Positions 10,326-17,572 of a stretch of 39,364 nucleotides of DNA are shown here, piece after piece. The notes beneath the pieces are model-generated. The model was not told the DNA's origin, searched no databases, and worked only from the letters and a program-made list of their open reading frames with translations. Source of the stretch: Methanobacteriota archaeon (GTDB lineage: Archaea > Thermoplasmatota > Poseidoniia > Poseidoniales > Poseidoniaceae); assembly GCA_011524855.1 (NCBI GenBank), contig WTJK01000037.1:5302-44665 (forward strand), in the 5' to 3' direction. Position numbers and translations under genes: made by a program. How positions within the stretch are numbered: position 1 is the stretch's first letter; each line of letters starts with the position of its first letter.

Positions 10326-13307
10326 TCAATCAAAAAAGTCGTCAAAGTCGTCTTGCATGGCCCGTGAATCGGCATGTTTTCTTCGAGCCGCCATGATTCG
10401 CTTCAAGCGCTTGTTCTTCTTCAAAATCATGGGGAGGGCAACGGCGTTCAGCAGGACCATCCCCAACAACACCAGACCGATGAGTTGGAATTCAGAGGTC
10501 AGCATCGCATCGTTCAGATCTTGCAACCAATCAACGCCCAACGGCGGCTCCGGGGGCTCAGGCTCGGGTGGGATGAGGTGTTGGTTGTAGGTCCACCAAT
10601 CGTCTTGGATGGACACGCGTTCAACGTTGGGCGACGAAGAAGTCACCATGAATTGCTCGTTTCCGACGTGGTCGATGGGGGCCAGAACGTAGTAGTACGT
10701 TCGATGTGGCCGAATGCCATCCACTTCGATGCCGGTTTGATTGAAGGAACCGGTGGCGCCCGGGTCGTTCACAAGGCCGCTGGCGATGGGCTGGATGAAG
10801 GACAGGTCCATGTCGTCCGGGCGCTGCTCGACCCGATAGAGGTCCCACATCAAGGCACCTTCGGCTTCGTGGTCGGGCCACGTCCAGGTGAGGTCGACTT
10901 CGTAACAAACCGACCAATCTTCCCGGCGATCGAAGCATTCGGTGTCGTTGGTGAACCGCCATTCATGATTGAAATTGGATACGGTGGCGGTGGGAGCCAC
11001 CGCATCACCGCACAGCAGGCCGGCTTCCCCGTCGACACGGGTGATGTTGACCATCTGGATGTTCGGTACGCCCTCGCGGTCGACGGGGGCGATGGCGTAG
11101 GATGCGCACACATCGGTGGGCAGTGGTTCTGGGTCCACCCACGTGGTCGCGGTCGGGGCGAGGGTGGCCACCTGCGTGGTGGTGGTCAGTTCTTCCCAGA
11201 TGAACGCATTGATGCCTTGCGAGGGGTCGGGGAAGAAGGTTGAACCGGCTCCGCCACTGAGTTTGTACACGGCCCAACCGCCGAGGTAGGGGTTGGTGGT
11301 GTCGCCTTGGGAGGTGAAGTCAAGTTGGATTTGGCCGGCTCGAAGTTGCGTGTGAGACACGTTCTGGGCCGAAACCGACAGGTCGGGGAGCACCCCGGTG
11401 ATGAGGACGACGCCCGGTTGAGCAAGTTGGACCGTGGCCGTTCCGTCTTCAGCGATGGAAGCGGAACTGTCCCCGTCGATTTCGGTCCACAGTTGTGAGT
11501 CGATGGAGGGGAGATAGCGCAAATTAACGGTGCTCAGGTTCACGTCGCTGGGCAAGATGGCAGAGAGGTTCAGCGTGAGCCGCAAACTTCGCAACCCCAA
11601 ATCCGTCGCAGGTTCCGAGGGCGTCAGGTTCACACTGACCATCATGAGGGGCGAAGCACCTCCGCCGATGCCGTAATTTTGACCGAGCAACGGCAGAAGC
11701 AATGCCGTTTCGTGTTCAGCGTCCTGTTCGGTGACGGCTTCCCCGGTGAGGTAGGGTGCGAGGTCCAGCGGGATGGCGTTGAGGACATCAAATTCAACGT
11801 AGGCGTACGCCTCTTCGCCGAACGGGTCTCGGGCAACCAACGTGATGTTGTGATGGCCAAGGCCGAACTCACTTCCGGTGAGGTTCAGCACCTGTCCGTG
11901 TCCCCACGTGTAGAAACCCTCCCGCCAGGTGAAGTTGAGGGGTTGTGAGGCCAATTCGCTGTGGCGTCCTACGAGTTCAACCGTTTCACTGGCCGAAAAC
12001 ACGCCGATGGCATCGTTGATTTGGATGGTTGGGTTGATGGGCCCGACCTCAATGTTGGTGTCGAACGAGTACAGGTTGTCCGTGGTTCGAACATCGAAGT
12101 TGTTGTCGAAGCTGTTTGGCAGGCTGACTCGGACCGTTCGGCTCGAACCGGTGGTGGTCATGGGGAACAAACAGGTGGTGGTTTCGCCTGGGTGGAGTTG
12201 GTCGACCTGGCATGTTTCGTCAACCTCGGTCAAAAACTGGGGCGAGAGCACTTCCAACGTGACGGCGATGTCGTCCACCGTGATGTTGCCGTTGTTTCGG
12301 ATCTCTGCCGTCAACCGGTCGGTGCCGTAATAGAAGGTCGTGGCCGATGCACTGTGCGAAGGATACACGTTCATGACTTCAAGATCAAGGCTGTTGTTGA
12401 ACACCAACACGCTGCTTGCTAAGTTGTCTTCGATGTTTTTGTCACCGTGAGGGGTGCCAATGCTGCTGAACACGCCCCACTTCAGAAGGAAGGTTCCCTC
12501 CGTCCCGTGATTCAAGGTAGGGAGAGCTTGGTTGAACGCTTCGAGGCCGCCCCAATTGGGCAAGGTGGTCACGTTGCGATAGGCCTGGTCCAGCAACACG
12601 TTCCCGTCTTCGGTCCACAATTGCCATCCCATGTTGGCATCCAGCGAACAGGTGGGGCAACTGATGGCATGGCCACGGGCCGTGAGGTTGTACGCCGTTC
12701 CGGTGTTGAGGATGCGTTGTCCGTCCTGTTCGGCGAGATGGTCGATGTTCTCCAACACGTCATGGGCGTTGTTCACGGTGATGTCGGAAAAGTACTGGGT
12801 GACATTGATGTTGAACTTGAGCTCGTCGTCAACGGGGTTTTGGTCGGTGGCGGTGAACGCATAGACCACCGTGAAGACCCCCTCAGAACCCGAACCAGGT
12901 CGCCAACGGTCGCTGGATGTGATGTTGTCGGAAGCACCGCCGGGAATGTTCGTGAGGGTGAACGCCCCCTGGTCTTCCGGATCGGCTTTGCATGCGGCAA
13001 CGGTCACATCGCCCTCGCAGGCATACCAGGACAAGGCTCGTCCCACCCCGTCGGTGCTGCCGATGAAATTCGTCACTTCGGCGGTGAATTCAATCTGCTG
13101 GTAAGCGTTGTACCAGCGGTCGGGTTGCGGCGATGCGGTGTCGGTGATGCCCAACGACCCGCTCACGGCACTGGCGGGGGGAACGGTCACCAACGCCAGC
13201 AAGGACGATGACAGCAACAACAGCACCAGCGAAGAACTTCGACGCCGGGGGGTTGCCTTGCGAGGCTGACGCTGGGCCATGTGCAAATGGTCGCCTTGAT
13301 GCTTCAA
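10326..13307 (-). CDS. Large surface protein with Ig-like/FN3-like domains and C-terminal anchor
   Basis: The protein has 993 residues from the ATG at 13307 (984 from the ATG at 13280, MAQRQPRK). A signal peptide of the form RRRSSSLVLLLL...PPASA|VSG is followed by a long beta-rich ectodomain with many N-x-S/T sites. Residues about 300-430 look like a CARDB-type domain (YYGTDRLTAEIRNNGNITVD), about 440-520 like a PKD-type domain (FGLGHHNITLVARDPFGEEA), and about 820-910 like a fibronectin-III domain (DLTWTWPDHE, PHRTYYYVLAPIDHVGNE). A Pro/Glu-rich linker leads to one membrane helix at about 940-962, then a Lys/Arg-rich and finally acidic cytoplasmic tail ending DDFDDFFD. Adhesion, envelope structure or polymer binding are all possible; function is not assigned. 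The domain calls are by eye. Confidence 0.82.
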   Translation of the reverse strand: MKHQGDHLHMAQRQPRKATPRRRSSSLVLLLLSSSLLALVTVPPASAVSGSLGITDTASPQPDRWYNAYQQIEFTAEVTNFIGSTDGVGRALSWYACEGDVTVAACKADPEDQGAFTLTNIPGGASDNITSSDRWRPGSGSEGVFTVVYAFTATDQNPVDDELKFNINVTQYFSDITVNNAHDVLENIDHLAEQDGQRILNTGTAYNLTARGHAISCPTCSLDANMGWQLWTEDGNVLLDQAYRNVTTLPNWGGLEAFNQALPTLNHGTEGTFLLKWGVFSSIGTPHGDKNIEDNLASSVLVFNNSLDLEVMNVYPSHSASATTFYYGTDRLTAEIRNNGNITVDDIAVTLEVLSPQFLTEVDETCQVDQLHPGETTTCLFPMTTTGSSRTVRVSLPNSFDNNFDVRTTDNLYSFDTNIEVGPINPTIQINDAIGVFSASETVELVGRHSELASQPLNFTWREGFYTWGHGQVLNLTGSEFGLGHHNITLVARDPFGEEAYAYVEFDVLNAIPLDLAPYLTGEAVTEQDAEHETALLLPLLGQNYGIGGGASPLMMVSVNLTPSEPATDLGLRSLRLTLNLSAILPSDVNLSTVNLRYLPSIDSQLWTEIDGDSSASIAEDGTATVQLAQPGVVLITGVLPDLSVSAQNVSHTQLRAGQIQLDFTSQGDTTNPYLGGWAVYKLSGGAGSTFFPDPSQGINAFIWEELTTTTQVATLAPTATTWVDPEPLPTDVCASYAIAPVDREGVPNIQMVNITRVDGEAGLLCGDAVAPTATVSNFNHEWRFTNDTECFDRREDWSVCYEVDLTWTWPDHEAEGALMWDLYRVEQRPDDMDLSFIQPIASGLVNDPGATGSFNQTGIEVDGIRPHRTYYYVLAPIDHVGNEQFMVTSSSPNVERVSIQDDWWTYNQHLIPPEPEPPEPPLGVDWLQDLNDAMLTSEFQLIGLVLLGMVLLNAVALPMILKKNKRLKRIMAARRKHADSRAMQDDFDDFFD

Positions 13308-13401: not shown

Positions 13402-14511
13402 ATGAAGCCCGCTTGGGTCAATGGATTCATGCGAAGCGATGCACGTCGTGACCTGGTCAGCGATGACCGGGGATTGACGGCGGTCATCGAGTTCCTTTCT
13501 GCGTTCACGCTGTTCTTGATGATCCTCACGGCGTTCATTTCGCTCGCCCAGCTGCAAATGGGTTCCAACGACCCTTCCGTGGACCGGTTGGACCGCGCTG
13601 CAGCGATGGGGTTGGATCGACTGACCTCAAACGAGGGATGGTTTGTTCCGGTGCTCGATGATGGCTCGTTCGACACAGCCAACGGCACGGCTGACTGGGA
13701 TGTGTTGGATGCCGAGGCCCTCAACAACGGCCGACTCCAAGCGGGCCTGTTGGTGAACGGCCAACTGGACAGCAACCGCATCTCGGCCCTGCGCAACGTC
13801 ACTGAAACCGGGATGGCAGAAGGGCTGGGTTTGGGCGACAGCATGAGCCTTCACTTGTCCATCCGCGTGGTGTCGAGCGACGACGCCAACCGGTCTGGCG
13901 CTGAATTGTTTGTCGGTGGGACGGAGCGAGGCACCTCGCCCGCCTCCTCCACGGCGTACAGGACATTCACACAAGAGGGGGAGGTCCTGATGGTGGTGCT
14001 GGAAGTGCACAGCCGTTCGCAAAAGTTTGACGTTCTTGAGTTGAATGAAATCATGACACGCCCGGCCTCGGGTGGTCCCGAGTGGATTGAGGTTCGAAAC
14101 CCCAATCAGTTTGCCGTGGCATTGCGAGGGTGGTCGCTGAACCACACGTCGGGGTCGTCGTCCTCGGACGTCCTCCTCCAGGGCGGTGTGATCTCCGGTG
14201 AGGGCATGGCTCTCCTGACCGGTGACCCGACGAGCCAAGCGGTGGGCAACGCCACCGAGGTGATCGACCTCGGCCAAACCGGCTTCCTCGGTGTGGGCTC
14301 GCTCAACGGCTTGGCCGATGGTCAAGGCGTCCTTTCTTTGCGCTACACCCAACTCGACAGTGTGACGCCCAGCGAAATGGGCCGAGCGGCTTGGGGTGGC
14401 AACACCGGATTGTTCATGGTCGTCGGCCAGTCCATGGCGTGGGACGGCAGCGATCGATTTGCAAGCGACGCTTGGTCCACCAACCCCGACCCCACGCCGG
14501 GCGAGGTCTGA
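13402..14511 (+). CDS. Pilin-like protein with C-terminal lamin-tail-like domain
   Basis: The protein has 369 residues, or 360 from the ATG at 13429. Near the start, DDRG at residues 21-24 precedes the hydrophobic stretch LTAVIEFLSAFTLFLMILTA with a Glu at the sixth hydrophobic position. That resembles the class III signal of archaeal type IV pilins, cut after Gly by a PibD-like peptidase. After about 160 residues of Asn/Ser/Gly-rich sequence, residues about 210-335 read FDVLELNEIMTRP, GPEWIEVRNPNQFAVALRGW, then ISGEGMALLTGD, the pattern of the lamin-tail (LTD) domain of secreted prokaryotic proteins. It lies 73 bases upstream of the KaiC-like cluster and is divergent from the large surface protein. 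A non-pilin single-pass membrane protein is the alternative. Confidence 0.7.
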   Translation: MKPAWVNGFMRSDARRDLVSDDRGLTAVIEFLSAFTLFLMILTAFISLAQLQMGSNDPSVDRLDRAAAMGLDRLTSNEGWFVPVLDDGSFDTANGTADWDVLDAEALNNGRLQAGLLVNGQLDSNRISALRNVTETGMAEGLGLGDSMSLHLSIRVVSSDDANRSGAELFVGGTERGTSPASSTAYRTFTQEGEVLMVVLEVHSRSQKFDVLELNEIMTRPASGGPEWIEVRNPNQFAVALRGWSLNHTSGSSSSDVLLQGGVISGEGMALLTGDPTSQAVGNATEVIDLGQTGFLGVGSLNGLADGQGVLSLRYTQLDSVTPSEMGRAAWGGNTGLFMVVGQSMAWDGSDRFASDAWSTNPDPTPGEV

Positions 14512-14584
14512 ACGGAGCGGGCCTTGCGGCGTCCGGGCATGCAAACACTTCATCAACCTGCAAGCGCTCACTGAGGTTGGTCCC

Positions 14585-15367
14585 ATGCAGTCCTCTGGCG
14601 TCTACACCCGCGACCGATGCGTCACCGGCATTCATGGATTGGATGAAATCCTCCGCGGTGGCATTCCTTACGGTTCCACCGTTCTGGCAGCCGGGACCTG
14701 TGGGTCCGGGAAGACGACCCTTGCCATGGAATTCCTCGTGCGCGGGGCGCTCGCTGGCGAGGCATGTGCCCACTTCACGGCAACAGAGCCCTCGGTGAAG
14801 TTGCTTGAAAACATCCGTCAATACGCCTTTTTTGACATGAACATGGTTGATTCCGGCCTCATCAACGTCTTTGACATGGACGTGCTGTATTCGTGGCTTG
14901 GTCTCGAGAAAGCCTCGTTCGATTTGGACGACGTCCACGCGCTCATCAAGTCCATCGTTGACATCGTGAACACCATCGGCGTCACCCGACTTGTCATCGA
15001 CTCGGTGACGACGTTGTGTTACAAGATCAAATCCGAGCAACTGATTCGTGATTTCTTGTTCACCCTCGGTAAGAAACTGGCGACCCTCGGGTGCACCACC
15101 GTCCTGATCAGCGAAATCACATCCGCCACCGAGAACGCACACTGGTCTTCGTTTGGGGTGGAAGAAGCCATCGCTGATGGCATCATTGTTATGGGCGATT
15201 CGGAACGCATGGGGCACCTCCTTCGTTTCCTTCAGGTGGTGAAGATGCGTGGCACGGCGCACAGTCGAGCGAAACACGCCATCGAACTCACGCCGTTGGG
15301 CGTGATGCTGATTCCGATGCTGAAATGGGGTGCTTCGGCGGATAAAACCAGTCGATGGGGGTCGTGA
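14585..15367 (+). CDS. KaiC/RadA-like ATPase with intact P-loop
   Basis: This single-domain RecA-fold ATPase has 260 residues. The N-terminus TGIHGLDEILRGGIPYGSTVLAAG is typical of KaiC and RAD55-like proteins. Walker A is GTCGSGKTT with Lys43, and Walker B is TRLVIDSVT with Asp139. The C-terminal half has LRFLQVVKMRGTAHSRAKHAIELTPLG, the usual KaiC ending. No KaiA or KaiB is in view, so a clock role is not implied; archaeal relatives include ArlH of the archaellum and KaiC-like signalling ATPases. The next gene starts two bases after its stop. The start at 14585 is chosen because sequence upstream of it overlaps the pilin-like gene and lacks KaiC similarity. Confidence 0.87.
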   Translation: MQSSGVYTRDRCVTGIHGLDEILRGGIPYGSTVLAAGTCGSGKTTLAMEFLVRGALAGEACAHFTATEPSVKLLENIRQYAFFDMNMVDSGLINVFDMDVLYSWLGLEKASFDLDDVHALIKSIVDIVNTIGVTRLVIDSVTTLCYKIKSEQLIRDFLFTLGKKLATLGCTTVLISEITSATENAHWSSFGVEEAIADGIIVMGDSERMGHLLRFLQVVKMRGTAHSRAKHAIELTPLGVMLIPMLKWGASADKTSRWGS

Positions 15368-15369
15368 CG

Positions 15370-15954
15370 ATGTTCGAACTTGACCAAATGATCGCCGAGC
15401 AACTCACGCAGGTCTCCCTCAGCAGCGCCATTCAAGTGCGCGTTGGGGCCAACAATGCCTTTGGCGTGACAGCAAGCACCATGGTGCCGTTGATGCAGAT
15501 GTTCGAAATGGGCGGCGTGTACATCTCTGCAGGTCGCGGAGCGGTGGAGATCATTCAGGCGTACGAGGCCATCGGGGTGGATGTGTCCAACATCCAGTTC
15601 CTCGACCTCGTCTCATCTGGCGTGTTGGGGGGGACCGATGTCCCGTACCCCAACGTGACCTTCATTGACAGCCCGATCATGCTTGAGTCCATCTTGTTGC
15701 GCACCCTTTACACCCTCCGCACGGTCAACACGGCACGAAATTTTGTGATCCTTGACAGCCTCAACGCGTTGTCCATCTACAACGACGACCGGATGCTCGC
15801 CGAATACCTTCACACCTTCATCAACACGTTCCGACAGCGCGAGGTGCTGTCCGTCCTCTTGACCGTGCCGGACCAAACGCCGCCACTTGTGCTGGCAAAT
15901 TTGGACACCTACTGCACGGACATTGTCGACCGGGGGCAAGTCGTTCTCCTCTGA
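15370..15954 (+). CDS. Degenerate KaiC/RecA-fold protein lacking a P-loop (first pseudo-ATPase)
   Basis: The protein has 194 residues from the ATG at 15370 (MFELDQMIAEQL); an ATG at 15355 overlaps the previous gene. It aligns in order with its upstream neighbour. The Walker A region reads VGANNAFGVTASTMV, with neither GxxxxGK nor the lysine. The Walker B-like strand remains (ARNFVILDSLNAL, Asp129). The later RecA-fold strand FRQREVLSVLLTVPD is followed by a truncated end at VDRGQVVLL. It probably cannot hydrolyse ATP and may bind an active partner. It ends in TGAGGTG, whose TGA is also the start of the Shine-Dalgarno site of the next gene, so expression is coupled. Confidence 0.78.
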   Translation: MFELDQMIAEQLTQVSLSSAIQVRVGANNAFGVTASTMVPLMQMFEMGGVYISAGRGAVEIIQAYEAIGVDVSNIQFLDLVSSGVLGGTDVPYPNVTFIDSPIMLESILLRTLYTLRTVNTARNFVILDSLNALSIYNDDRMLAEYLHTFINTFRQREVLSVLLTVPDQTPPLVLANLDTYCTDIVDRGQVVLL

Positions 15955-15963
15955 GGTGGTACC

Positions 15964-16767
15964 GTGGCACGGAAAATGACGTTTGACGAAGAAGACGAGG
16001 AATTCTTTGGGAAGGTCGGCTCGTTCGGTGTCCCGAAATTCGACAACGAAATGCACGGTGGTGTCCCCCGAGGTTTCACCATCATCGCGTTCACCGAAAC
16101 CGGTTCAGGAAGCGAATTGTTCGCCAAACAATTCACCTCGCCTGCGGAAGAACCGGAGAACACGCTGTACATCACGACCGACGAGGGGCAGCAAGAGATC
16201 GTTCGGATTTTTCAAAAATACGGATGGCCCCTCGACATCAACGTTCGGACCATCGGTGAGGAATACAACGCCAACGTTCTCGAGCGAGACCTCTTGGCCA
16301 GCCGCTACCGTTTGGAGGGCTTCAGGCTGGAGGACATTCAGCGTCTGGCACAAACCCGTTTTGTGGACGATTCATCTCAGGATTATCTGACGGAAGTCAC
16401 CAACGAAATCATGGGCTTGGGGCCTTACTTCCGAGCGGTGCTTGACAACCTGGACTTCTTCCTTCAACGCGAAGACCCGGCTCGGGTGGTGTCCATGGTT
16501 CGCATGCTGCAGGCCCATGCTCAACTCGTGCGTGGAATCCTGATGATTTCGGTGTCCACCGACGGCTTGGCTTCCAGTGTGAAGCAGGAGCTTTCGTCCA
16601 TTGCTGACATGGTCTTGTCGTTCAAGGTCCGAACCATCGGTACGGATTTTGAAAACTCGATGATCGTTTCCAAGTTCCGAAACGCCCCGGAAAACCTCAA
16701 AATTTTGGTGTTCCGTGTGACTCCGGACGAAGGTATCACGCCCGAAACGGTTGAACGCATCGCTTGA
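15964..16767 (+). CDS. Degenerate KaiC/RecA-fold protein with altered P-loop (second pseudo-ATPase)
   Basis: The start is a GTG at 15964 supported by GAGGTG five bases upstream; an ATG at 15976 is less well placed. The product has 267 residues. The KaiC-like opening FGVPKFDNEMHGGVPRGFTI is clear. The Walker A equivalent is TETGSGSELF (residues about 44-53), where the invariant Lys is Ser50 and the following Ser/Thr is Glu51. The Walker B strand is weakened (FRAVLDNLDFFL). The remainder (MVRMLQAHAQLVRGILMISVSTDG, ADMVLSFKVRTIG) keeps RecA-fold order. With its two neighbours it forms one active and two inactive KaiC-like proteins in a probable operon. The downstream gap of 55 bases precedes the methyltransferase. 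Confidence 0.8.
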   Translation: MARKMTFDEEDEEFFGKVGSFGVPKFDNEMHGGVPRGFTIIAFTETGSGSELFAKQFTSPAEEPENTLYITTDEGQQEIVRIFQKYGWPLDINVRTIGEEYNANVLERDLLASRYRLEGFRLEDIQRLAQTRFVDDSSQDYLTEVTNEIMGLGPYFRAVLDNLDFFLQREDPARVVSMVRMLQAHAQLVRGILMISVSTDGLASSVKQELSSIADMVLSFKVRTIGTDFENSMIVSKFRNAPENLKILVFRVTPDEGITPETVERIA

Positions 16768-16822
16768 TGTTGTATCGTGGTGGAAACGACACCTCCAAAA
16801 CGGTCGGACCATCCCAAACATC

Positions 16823-17572
16823 ATGGGCAAGCGCGCAGCAACGGGCGGTTACGACCCCTCCGGTATTGACTTGGACGCCTGGGAGACGCTGGAGTCGCAG
16901 CTCGAAGCCACCATCCCCAATTACGATCGCGTCAACAAATGGATGACGTTTGGACAGGACAAGCGCTGGCGCAGGAACGTCCGAAACCACGCCCAACCTG
17001 GCATGAAAATTCTGGAGGTTGGCTGCGGCCCCGGCTCCTTCGCTGAGGACCTGGTCGGCTTGGACGTCACCTGTTTGGACCCGTCAGCAGAGATGCTGGC
17101 TACGGCCAAGCGTCGCGTGGACGGCGCCCGTCGATCACGAGGTGAAGCTCCCGCAGCTTACGTCGAAGCCATCGCCGAGTCCATTCCCCTTCCCGACAAC
17201 ACCTTTGACATGGTGTTTTGCTTGTTTTCCTTCCGCGACTTCCAAGACAAAGAGCAAGGGCTGCGCGAAATTTTTCGCGTGCTCAAGCCCGGGGGGCGGC
17301 TCGTCATCTGCGATGCAGGAAAAGCCAATCGCATCCACGGTTTCTTCGGTTACCTTTGGATGAACACCGTGGTGCAATGGATGGCTCGTATCATCACTCG
17401 GGAGAAGAACCACCCCTGGAAGGGCCTCGCCAACAGTTACACACACTATGGCACCAACGGTTACTACCGAGCCATGCTCCGCAAGGTCGGCTTCGAGGCC
17501 GTTGACGGTCGGTTGCTGCTGCCCTTCGGCATGTCGAGTCGATTCCGTGGTACGAAACCAAAGTCAAACTGA
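16823..17572 (+). CDS. UbiE/MenG-like SAM-dependent methyltransferase
   Basis: The protein has 249 residues from the ATG at 16823 (MGKRAATGGYDPSG). The class I methyltransferase fold is clear: motif I is ILEVGCGPGSFAEDL, the acidic end of strand 2 is VTCLDPSAEML, and later motifs are LPDNTFDMVFCLFSFRDF and REIFRVLKPGGRLVICD. The early YDRVNKWMTFGQDKRWRR is the UbiE/MenG signature (YDxxNxxxSxGxxxxWR). The family C-methylates demethylmenaquinone or ubiquinone precursors. This could complete a respiratory quinone and would suit an aerobe with haem-copper oxidase genes nearby, but the family also contains other small-molecule methyltransferases. It precedes the ATP synthase promoter by 50 bases. 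Confidence 0.75.
   Translation: MGKRAATGGYDPSGIDLDAWETLESQLEATIPNYDRVNKWMTFGQDKRWRRNVRNHAQPGMKILEVGCGPGSFAEDLVGLDVTCLDPSAEMLATAKRRVDGARRSRGEAPAAYVEAIAESIPLPDNTFDMVFCLFSFRDFQDKEQGLREIFRVLKPGGRLVICDAGKANRIHGFFGYLWMNTVVQWMARIITREKNHPWKGLANSYTHYGTNGYYRAMLRKVGFEAVDGRLLLPFGMSSRFRGTKPKSN

Follow-up and report, generated by a model that had tools for sequence, protein, structure and literature searches.

The archaellum protein ArlH has a KaiC fold and assembles into hexamers; it binds ATP but does not hydrolyse it, and it autophosphorylates, its phosphorylated form losing its hold on the motor ArlI (PMC8978795). It is encoded by a single gene in the arl operon and has a working Walker A motif. For KaiC-like genes near archaeal type IV pilus (T4P) loci a role in regulating the pilus has been predicted (Makarova et al. 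2016, PMC4858521); the systems in the portions of that article available to us have either a single KaiC or a KaiC with a KaiB-like or DEATH-like partner, and those portions describe no trio of one active and two inactive proteins. Here we analyse such a trio, P1, P2 and P3, which lies behind a pilin-like gene, P0, in a Candidatus Poseidonia-type genome of marine group IIa (MGIIa, order Poseidoniales). The window, meaning the whole stretch of DNA that was analysed, is 39,364 nucleotides long (contig WTJK01000037.1, assembly GCA_011524855.1), and the closest named relatives of its P2 are from Ca. Poseidonia and Poseidoniales metagenome-assembled genomes.

The trio shares with ArlH the KaiC fold and a tie to a filament machine of the T4P superfamily, and the C-terminal part of P3 matches ArlH models. 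It differs in having three genes, two of them without a Walker A motif, in its link with pilins and a TadA-like ATPase, and in its presence where archaella are absent. Three different RecA-fold proteins also work together in Elp456, a subcomplex of Elongator whose RecA-like ring is a hexamer built from them. The ATP dependence of Elp456 has been described (PMC10018365), and the likeness is one of architecture only: Elp456 is eukaryotic and acts on tRNA, and the Pfam matches of P2 to PF10483 (0.22) and of P1 to PF05625 (0.052) are sub-threshold. The CdiP pilus of Cuniculiplasma divulgatum (PMC12448462) is a Thermoplasmata T4P with a platform split between two genes, as in one of the pilus operons described below, but the available part of that report describes no KaiC trio. 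P1 fits the class of KaiC proteins that Makarova et al. predicted to regulate T4P. No description of a conserved KaiC trio with one active and two inactive members was found in the literature covered, which did not include the 2017 mBio survey of KaiC proteins (Makarova, Galperin and Koonin). An association between KaiC and pili had been predicted before, and the conserved trio with one active and two dead members appears to be new.

Composition and conservation of the trio

Four genes lie in series on the plus strand, with the following features (lengths in amino acids, aa).

13402..14511, plus strand: P0, probable minor pilin, 369 aa; pilin-like and membrane-anchored, with a segment resembling the Lamin Tail Domain
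13468..13542, plus strand: class-III-signal-like stretch and N-terminal hydrophobic helix of P0, residues 23-47, from sequence reading and alignment
14585..15367, plus strand: P1, KaiC-family ATPase with intact Walker A, 260 aa
14693..14719, plus strand: P1 Walker A, GTCGSGKTT (Lys43); K43, T44 and T45 invariant in 19 P1 proteins across the phylum
15242..15253, plus strand: P1 trans-acting finger, KMRG (K220, R222), invariant in 80/80 MGIIa loci and in the phylum set
15370..15954, plus strand: P2, truncated P-loop-less KaiC-like protein, 194 aa
15442..15477, plus strand: P2 equivalent of the P-loop, VGANNAFGVTAS, with no Gly-Lys, from sequence reading
15964..16767, plus strand: P3, KaiC/ArlH-like pseudo-ATPase, 267 aa
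16093..16122, plus strand: degenerate Walker A of P3, TETGSGSELF (Lys to Ser, Ser/Thr to Glu), from sequence and alignments
16672..16683, plus strand: retained finger of P3, KFRN, equivalent to KMRG of KaiC; [ST]KFRN in 77/79 MGIIa loci

P1 and P2 are separated by 2 bases and P2 and P3 by 9. A GGTGG sequence resembling a Shine-Dalgarno site shares bases with the stop codon of P2 (TCTGAGGTGGTACCGTG), and P2 would have 199 aa if it began instead at the in-frame ATG at 15355. A preliminary description made from the window's letters had proposed this layout of a pilin-like gene followed by three KaiC-like genes, and the reading of open reading frames bore out its coordinates, gaps and stop/Shine-Dalgarno overlap, together with the motifs it listed: the P1 Walker A with Lys43, a P2 without GxxxxGK and the altered site of P3.

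P1 is a member of the KaiC/RAD55 family (PF06745, E=4.6e-52, 177 bits against a cut-off of 26.6) and matched KaiC in the PDB at 1.2e-40. It was nearer to KaiC than to ArlH, with an ArlH model score of 36 bits against the NCBIfam cut-off of 215. Counts for MGIIa refer to 80 named loci, with 78, 76 and 76 checkable neighbours for the three counts of gene order; among them the P1 Walker A read GTCGSGKT in 79 of 80 and the finger VVKMRG in all 80. A circadian KaiABC clock was rejected because P1 is single-domain and scored far under the circ_KaiC cut-off (97.8 bits against 546). Inspection of the neighbouring genes by eye showed no kaiB, for which no profile search was made.

P3 also passed the PF06745 cut-off (1.8e-16, 60.6 bits), and its profile matched KaiC (6.9e-26) and FlaH (1e-11) in the PDB and P1 by HHalign (98.6 %, E=5.6e-16). 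Matches to the NCBIfam models KaiC_arch_4 (8.3e-14) and ArlH (4.3e-13) were both far under the model cut-offs; P3 is not an ArlH by this measure (49.5 bits against 215), and its gene lies outside the arl operon. The AlphaFold model of P3 was unusable (pLDDT 39), probably owing to an alignment of MGIIa sequences only, and the fold of P3 therefore rests on profiles, from which P3 is assigned with confidence to the KaiC/ArlH family. Its nucleotide site, having lost the Lys and the Mg-binding Ser/Thr, is not that of an active ATPase. The named MGIIa loci have G[SA]G followed always by a residue other than Lys and then by Glu-Leu-Phe, and across Poseidoniales the Lys position holds Ser, Ala or another residue and the Ser/Thr position Glu or Asp. 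Outside the order the Ser/Thr position is nearly always acidic and a K-x-[RK]-N finger is kept, with Lys lost in most lineages and retained in marine group III (MGIII)-like genomes and one other (GSGKEL). Across the phylum set K237 is nearly invariant and N240 invariant, as are G22, K55, Q56, T72, E74, W88 and D164.

P2 is the most diverged of the three. No GxxxxGK[ST] occurs anywhere in it, and a P-loop was found in 0 of 80 named MGIIa loci. Its match to PF06745 over residues 46-165 (3.2e-4, 20.6 bits) fell under the cut-off, HHalign with P1 gave E=1.4e-4 at a probability of 52, and its profile had no significant match in the PDB. An AlphaFold2 model of moderate quality (mean pLDDT 61, pTM 0.60) gave a Foldseek list led by KaiC and FlaH, with weak matches (best E 1.5e-3, TM about 0.5). 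P2 ends before the C-terminal hairpin that carries the trans-acting Lys and Arg in KaiC. Residues Y51, F77, D79, P102, D129 and S130 are invariant across the phylum, and a P2-profile search found orthologues of about 190-200 aa throughout Thermoplasmatota at 1e-41 to 1e-24. These profiles and the model suggest that P2 is probably a highly diverged KaiC-fold protein. The RecA fold that had been proposed for both the second and the third gene is thus clear by profile for P3, and for P2 the best model matches KaiC and FlaH only weakly.

The trio, with its operon-like gene arrangement, was conserved as a unit. The order around P2 was unbroken in MGIIa, with P1 upstream in 78/78 loci and P3 downstream in 76/76, and P0 stood upstream of the trio in 76/76; homologues not kept together would have spoken against the preliminary description, and the check for this did not refute it. 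Among 59 relatives, P1 and P2 occurred in the same 40 genomes, so that all 40 trio-bearing genomes had a P1 orthologue, and P3 occurred in 39 of the 40, the exception being at a contig end. The survey outside the order consisted of 40 P2-positive loci that were read, taken from the P2-profile search of Thermoplasmatota (in our labels G denotes a genome, L a locus, g a genus, f a family and C a contig). There, loci from MGIII-like genomes (f3) and from f6, f12, f13, f16, f20, f24, f26, f34 and f35 had the order P1-P2-P3, so that its conservation, which the preliminary description had proposed to check across marine Thermoplasmatota, extends well beyond MGIIa. A P3-profile search gave a true P3 (E<1e-40) in 26 of 40 P2-positive genomes. 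Where P3 was missing, P1 stood directly before P2 in f30, f38 and f22; in f7 (G323, L195) the closest P1-like gene was a weaker match, 4 kb off and on the other strand. An extra gene sometimes lies between P2 and P3 outside Poseidoniales, and a gene of about 370 aa occupies this position in f13 and f20 (L176:3751-4875, L178:8285-9400).

Pairwise distances of P1, P2 and P3 correlated (Spearman 0.66-0.69), as shared descent predicts. The motifs are divided in a constant manner: P1 has both site and finger, P3 the finger only and P2 neither. The recurrence of the gene order and of the lesions in MGIII-like genomes and other families means that the trio is ancient and under selection.

Occurrence of the trio with pilus machinery

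Associations with filament machinery were examined in 319 Poseidoniales genomes from 22 genera, in which three families of secretion ATPase were distinguished: ATPase A (418 aa, TadA-like; orthologue threshold E<1e-100), ATPase B (515 aa, FlaI/PilB3-like) and ArlI of the archaellum (about 575 aa). The ATPase A operon has its platform split into two T2SSF-like proteins. The trio was present in 15 of 22 genera; ATPase A occurred in the same 15 and in none of the other seven, and ATPase B had an identical genus distribution, so that T4P secretion ATPases were found in 15/15 trio-bearing genera. ArlI followed another pattern. In g9 and g22, 28 genomes have an ArlI orthologue but no trio; in g21 and in seven of nine g12 genomes the trio is present and an ArlI orthologue is missing. 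The match of the trio genera with ATPases A and B and the mismatch with ArlI support the conclusion that the trio goes with T4P and not with the archaellum. The surface-filament link suggested in the preliminary description is borne out here and made specific to T4P by the TadA-like ATPase and by the PilA pilins and prepilin peptidase described next. Its statement that no secretion ATPase or platform protein is visible holds for the window, and the genome has both elsewhere (L051, L053).

Neighbouring genes, a more independent line of evidence, pointed in the same direction. In three genera (G033, G043/G057 and G050) the gene directly after P3 encodes a PilA pilin with a PF07790 match above cut-off. 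A PilA orthologue (42-47 % identity) is the gene right after ATPase A in G030, and the window's own genome has one close to its ATPase A operon. A PilA-type pilin was also the first recognised gene downstream of P2 in each of the six checkable loci without P3 (L184, L191, L195, L196, L197 and L199, from f30, f38, f7 and f22), and the genomes of these loci carry just 1-4 PF07790 proteins each. A prepilin-peptidase-like gene adjoins the trio locus in g10 and g12 (PF06847, 8.7e-6, just under cut-off) and in G342, and in G420 (L213:1082-5749) 14 bases separate the end of an ATPase-B pilus motor operon from a convergent P2. PF07790 pilins were found in 6/6 trio-bearing against 0/4 trio-lacking Poseidoniales tested. 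Outside Poseidoniales the counts gave no more than a statistical trend: P2-positive genomes had a mean of 4.2 secretion ATPase (PF00437) matches against 2.7 per genome in the others (P=1.4e-4), with overlapping distributions and no correction for relatedness, and at least two matches were present in 31/33 P2-positive genomes compared with 35/47 others.

The distance from the trio to ATPase A, on the same contig, was near-constant at about 75-80 kb in many MGIIa genomes (G005:C31, G014:C6, G022:C2, G028:C3, G085:C1, G092:C1, G109:C53 and others).

The pilin-like gene and other surface proteins

P0 has an N terminus like that of class III prepilins (RG/LTAVIEFLSAF, the slash marking the putative cleavage point), kept across 19 aligned loci in the pattern [GA]/[LVM]TAV[IV]EFL. 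Residues 211-276 form a segment resembling the lamin tail domain (PF00932 LTD, E=2e-6, under cut-off), which is above cut-off in the G033 orthologue. In profile searches P0 matched neither of the pilin models PF07790 and TIGR02537. P0 orthologues also lie upstream of P1 in two f20 loci. By its sequence features P0 is a probable minor pilin.

Divergent from P0 on the minus strand (window 10326-13307) lies a gene for a secreted protein of 993 aa that is CARDB-like (PF07705, 3.5e-4, just under cut-off), and a CARDB-like gene had this position in 61 of the 64 named MGIIa loci with enough sequence; the protein is a possible surface partner of the pilus. On the other side of the trio, a frame for a UbiE-like methyltransferase (window 16751-17572) has a TTG start within the end of P3, with a later start equally likely. 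Five Poseidoniales genomes with the trio, from two families (G000:C71:20742-20924, and similarly G043, G050, G057 and G092), also had a PF07790 domain within a very long open frame of about 4,500-4,640 codons, and smaller giant frames with this domain, of about 1,270-2,430 codons, were present in other Thermoplasmatota. These frames possibly encode giant adhesins anchored by a pilin domain.

Possible roles of the trio and their meaning

We give an even chance to the reading that a single KaiC-fold module, with P1, P2 and P3 as its subunits, is dedicated to T4P and would switch the pilus motor in the manner of ArlH. The pilus served would be the one with PilA-type pilins, the TadA-like assembly ATPase and a platform of two T2SSF-like proteins. 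P1 alone has the residues for usual ATP binding and hydrolysis and is predicted to be the only working ATPase or kinase of the set. In KaiC, a finger of each subunit completes the ATP site of its neighbour. The three proteins may assemble into a mixed ring, in which ATP sites of P1 would be completed by fingers of P1 or P3 and left incomplete beside P2. The ATP state or autophosphorylation of P1 would then switch the affinity of the ring for the pilus motor ATPase or the platform, and this switch may turn pilus assembly on and off, as is thought for ArlH acting on ArlI. A stricter version, in which the mixed ring is obligate throughout the phylum, with P1 hydrolysing ATP, P3 donating a finger and P2 terminating sites, is asymmetric by construction and docks on the TadA-like motor to gate the pili, is unlikely in our view.

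Several observations weigh against a dedicated pilus module. P3 is not universal, since no true P3 was found by profile search in f30, f38, f7 and f22. The Poseidoniales genera that lack the trio may form one clade, and loss together with the ATPases may reflect one or a few events; the match over 15 of 22 genera therefore does not amount to 22 independent points. Secretion ATPases occur without P2 outside Poseidoniales, and G392 (97 % complete; C109, L211) has a full P1-P2-P3 set with only a marginal PF00437 match. The MGIIa motor operon, moreover, is not adjacent to the trio and lies about 75-80 kb away.

The chief rival holds that the trio is a signalling hub, in which P1 is a KaiC-type switch and P2 and P3 are regulatory and output partners, controlling the transcription or post-translational state of surface genes, including pilins, and leaving the motor untouched. 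We consider this possible, with about one chance in three. In Haloferax volcanii, archaellation, cell shape and the expression of pilins are under the control of two KaiC-like proteins, CirA and CirD (PMC13286277). Each is encoded by a single gene, and no trio with inactive partners is described for them. A hub also agrees with P1 being closer to KaiC than to ArlH, with the location of the MGIIa motor genes elsewhere, and with the 371-aa protein encoded between P2 and P3 in G338, for which Methanogen output domain 1 (PF18546, 3e-5) was a marginal match; G329 has a gene of similar size in this place. However, no DNA-binding or response-regulator gene was seen to recur beside the trio, and the genes that do recur there encode structural pilins and prepilin peptidase.

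Other roles were far less probable. RecA folds resembling Rad51 paralogues might handle DNA alongside a DNA-uptake pilus, an arrangement that recalls the sets of active and inactive RecA-fold proteins known among those paralogues and the weak matches of P1 to RadB/RadA models; it is very improbable, as KaiC and ArlH were the best matches by many orders of magnitude, and no competence genes (ComEC, DprA) were noticed near the examined loci, where no specific search for them was made. Service to the archaellum as a second ArlH-like set is equally improbable. P3 does resemble ArlH, and most genera with the trio also have archaella, the distribution of which in marine group II (MGII) has been published (PMC6336850, PMC6461757), but the arl operon already has its own ArlH (L062; 155.7 bits, also under the cut-off of 215), and this role was rejected on distribution, given the 28 g9 and g22 genomes with ArlI but no trio and the reverse in g21 and most of g12. 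The loss of the P-loop would fit P2 and P3 being decaying duplicates without a role, which is scarcely credible and was rejected on their conservation across the phylum, their own invariant residues and the fixed gene order.

On/off control of archaeal pili is poorly known, and the ArlH switch looks isolated. If the reading of the trio as a pilus-tied KaiC set is true, ArlH would be one example of a wider principle, and if a mixed ring acts on the TadA-like motor, control by KaiC rings would be general to motors of the T4P superfamily and not specific to the archaellum. A family of pseudo-ATPases that has kept the finger and lost the P-loop would lend itself to precise biochemical predictions, and the wide occurrence of the trio in Thermoplasmatota means that tests could be made in a cultured member. 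MGII genomes that carry the trio need not be those of motile organisms, since its occurrence follows that of pili.

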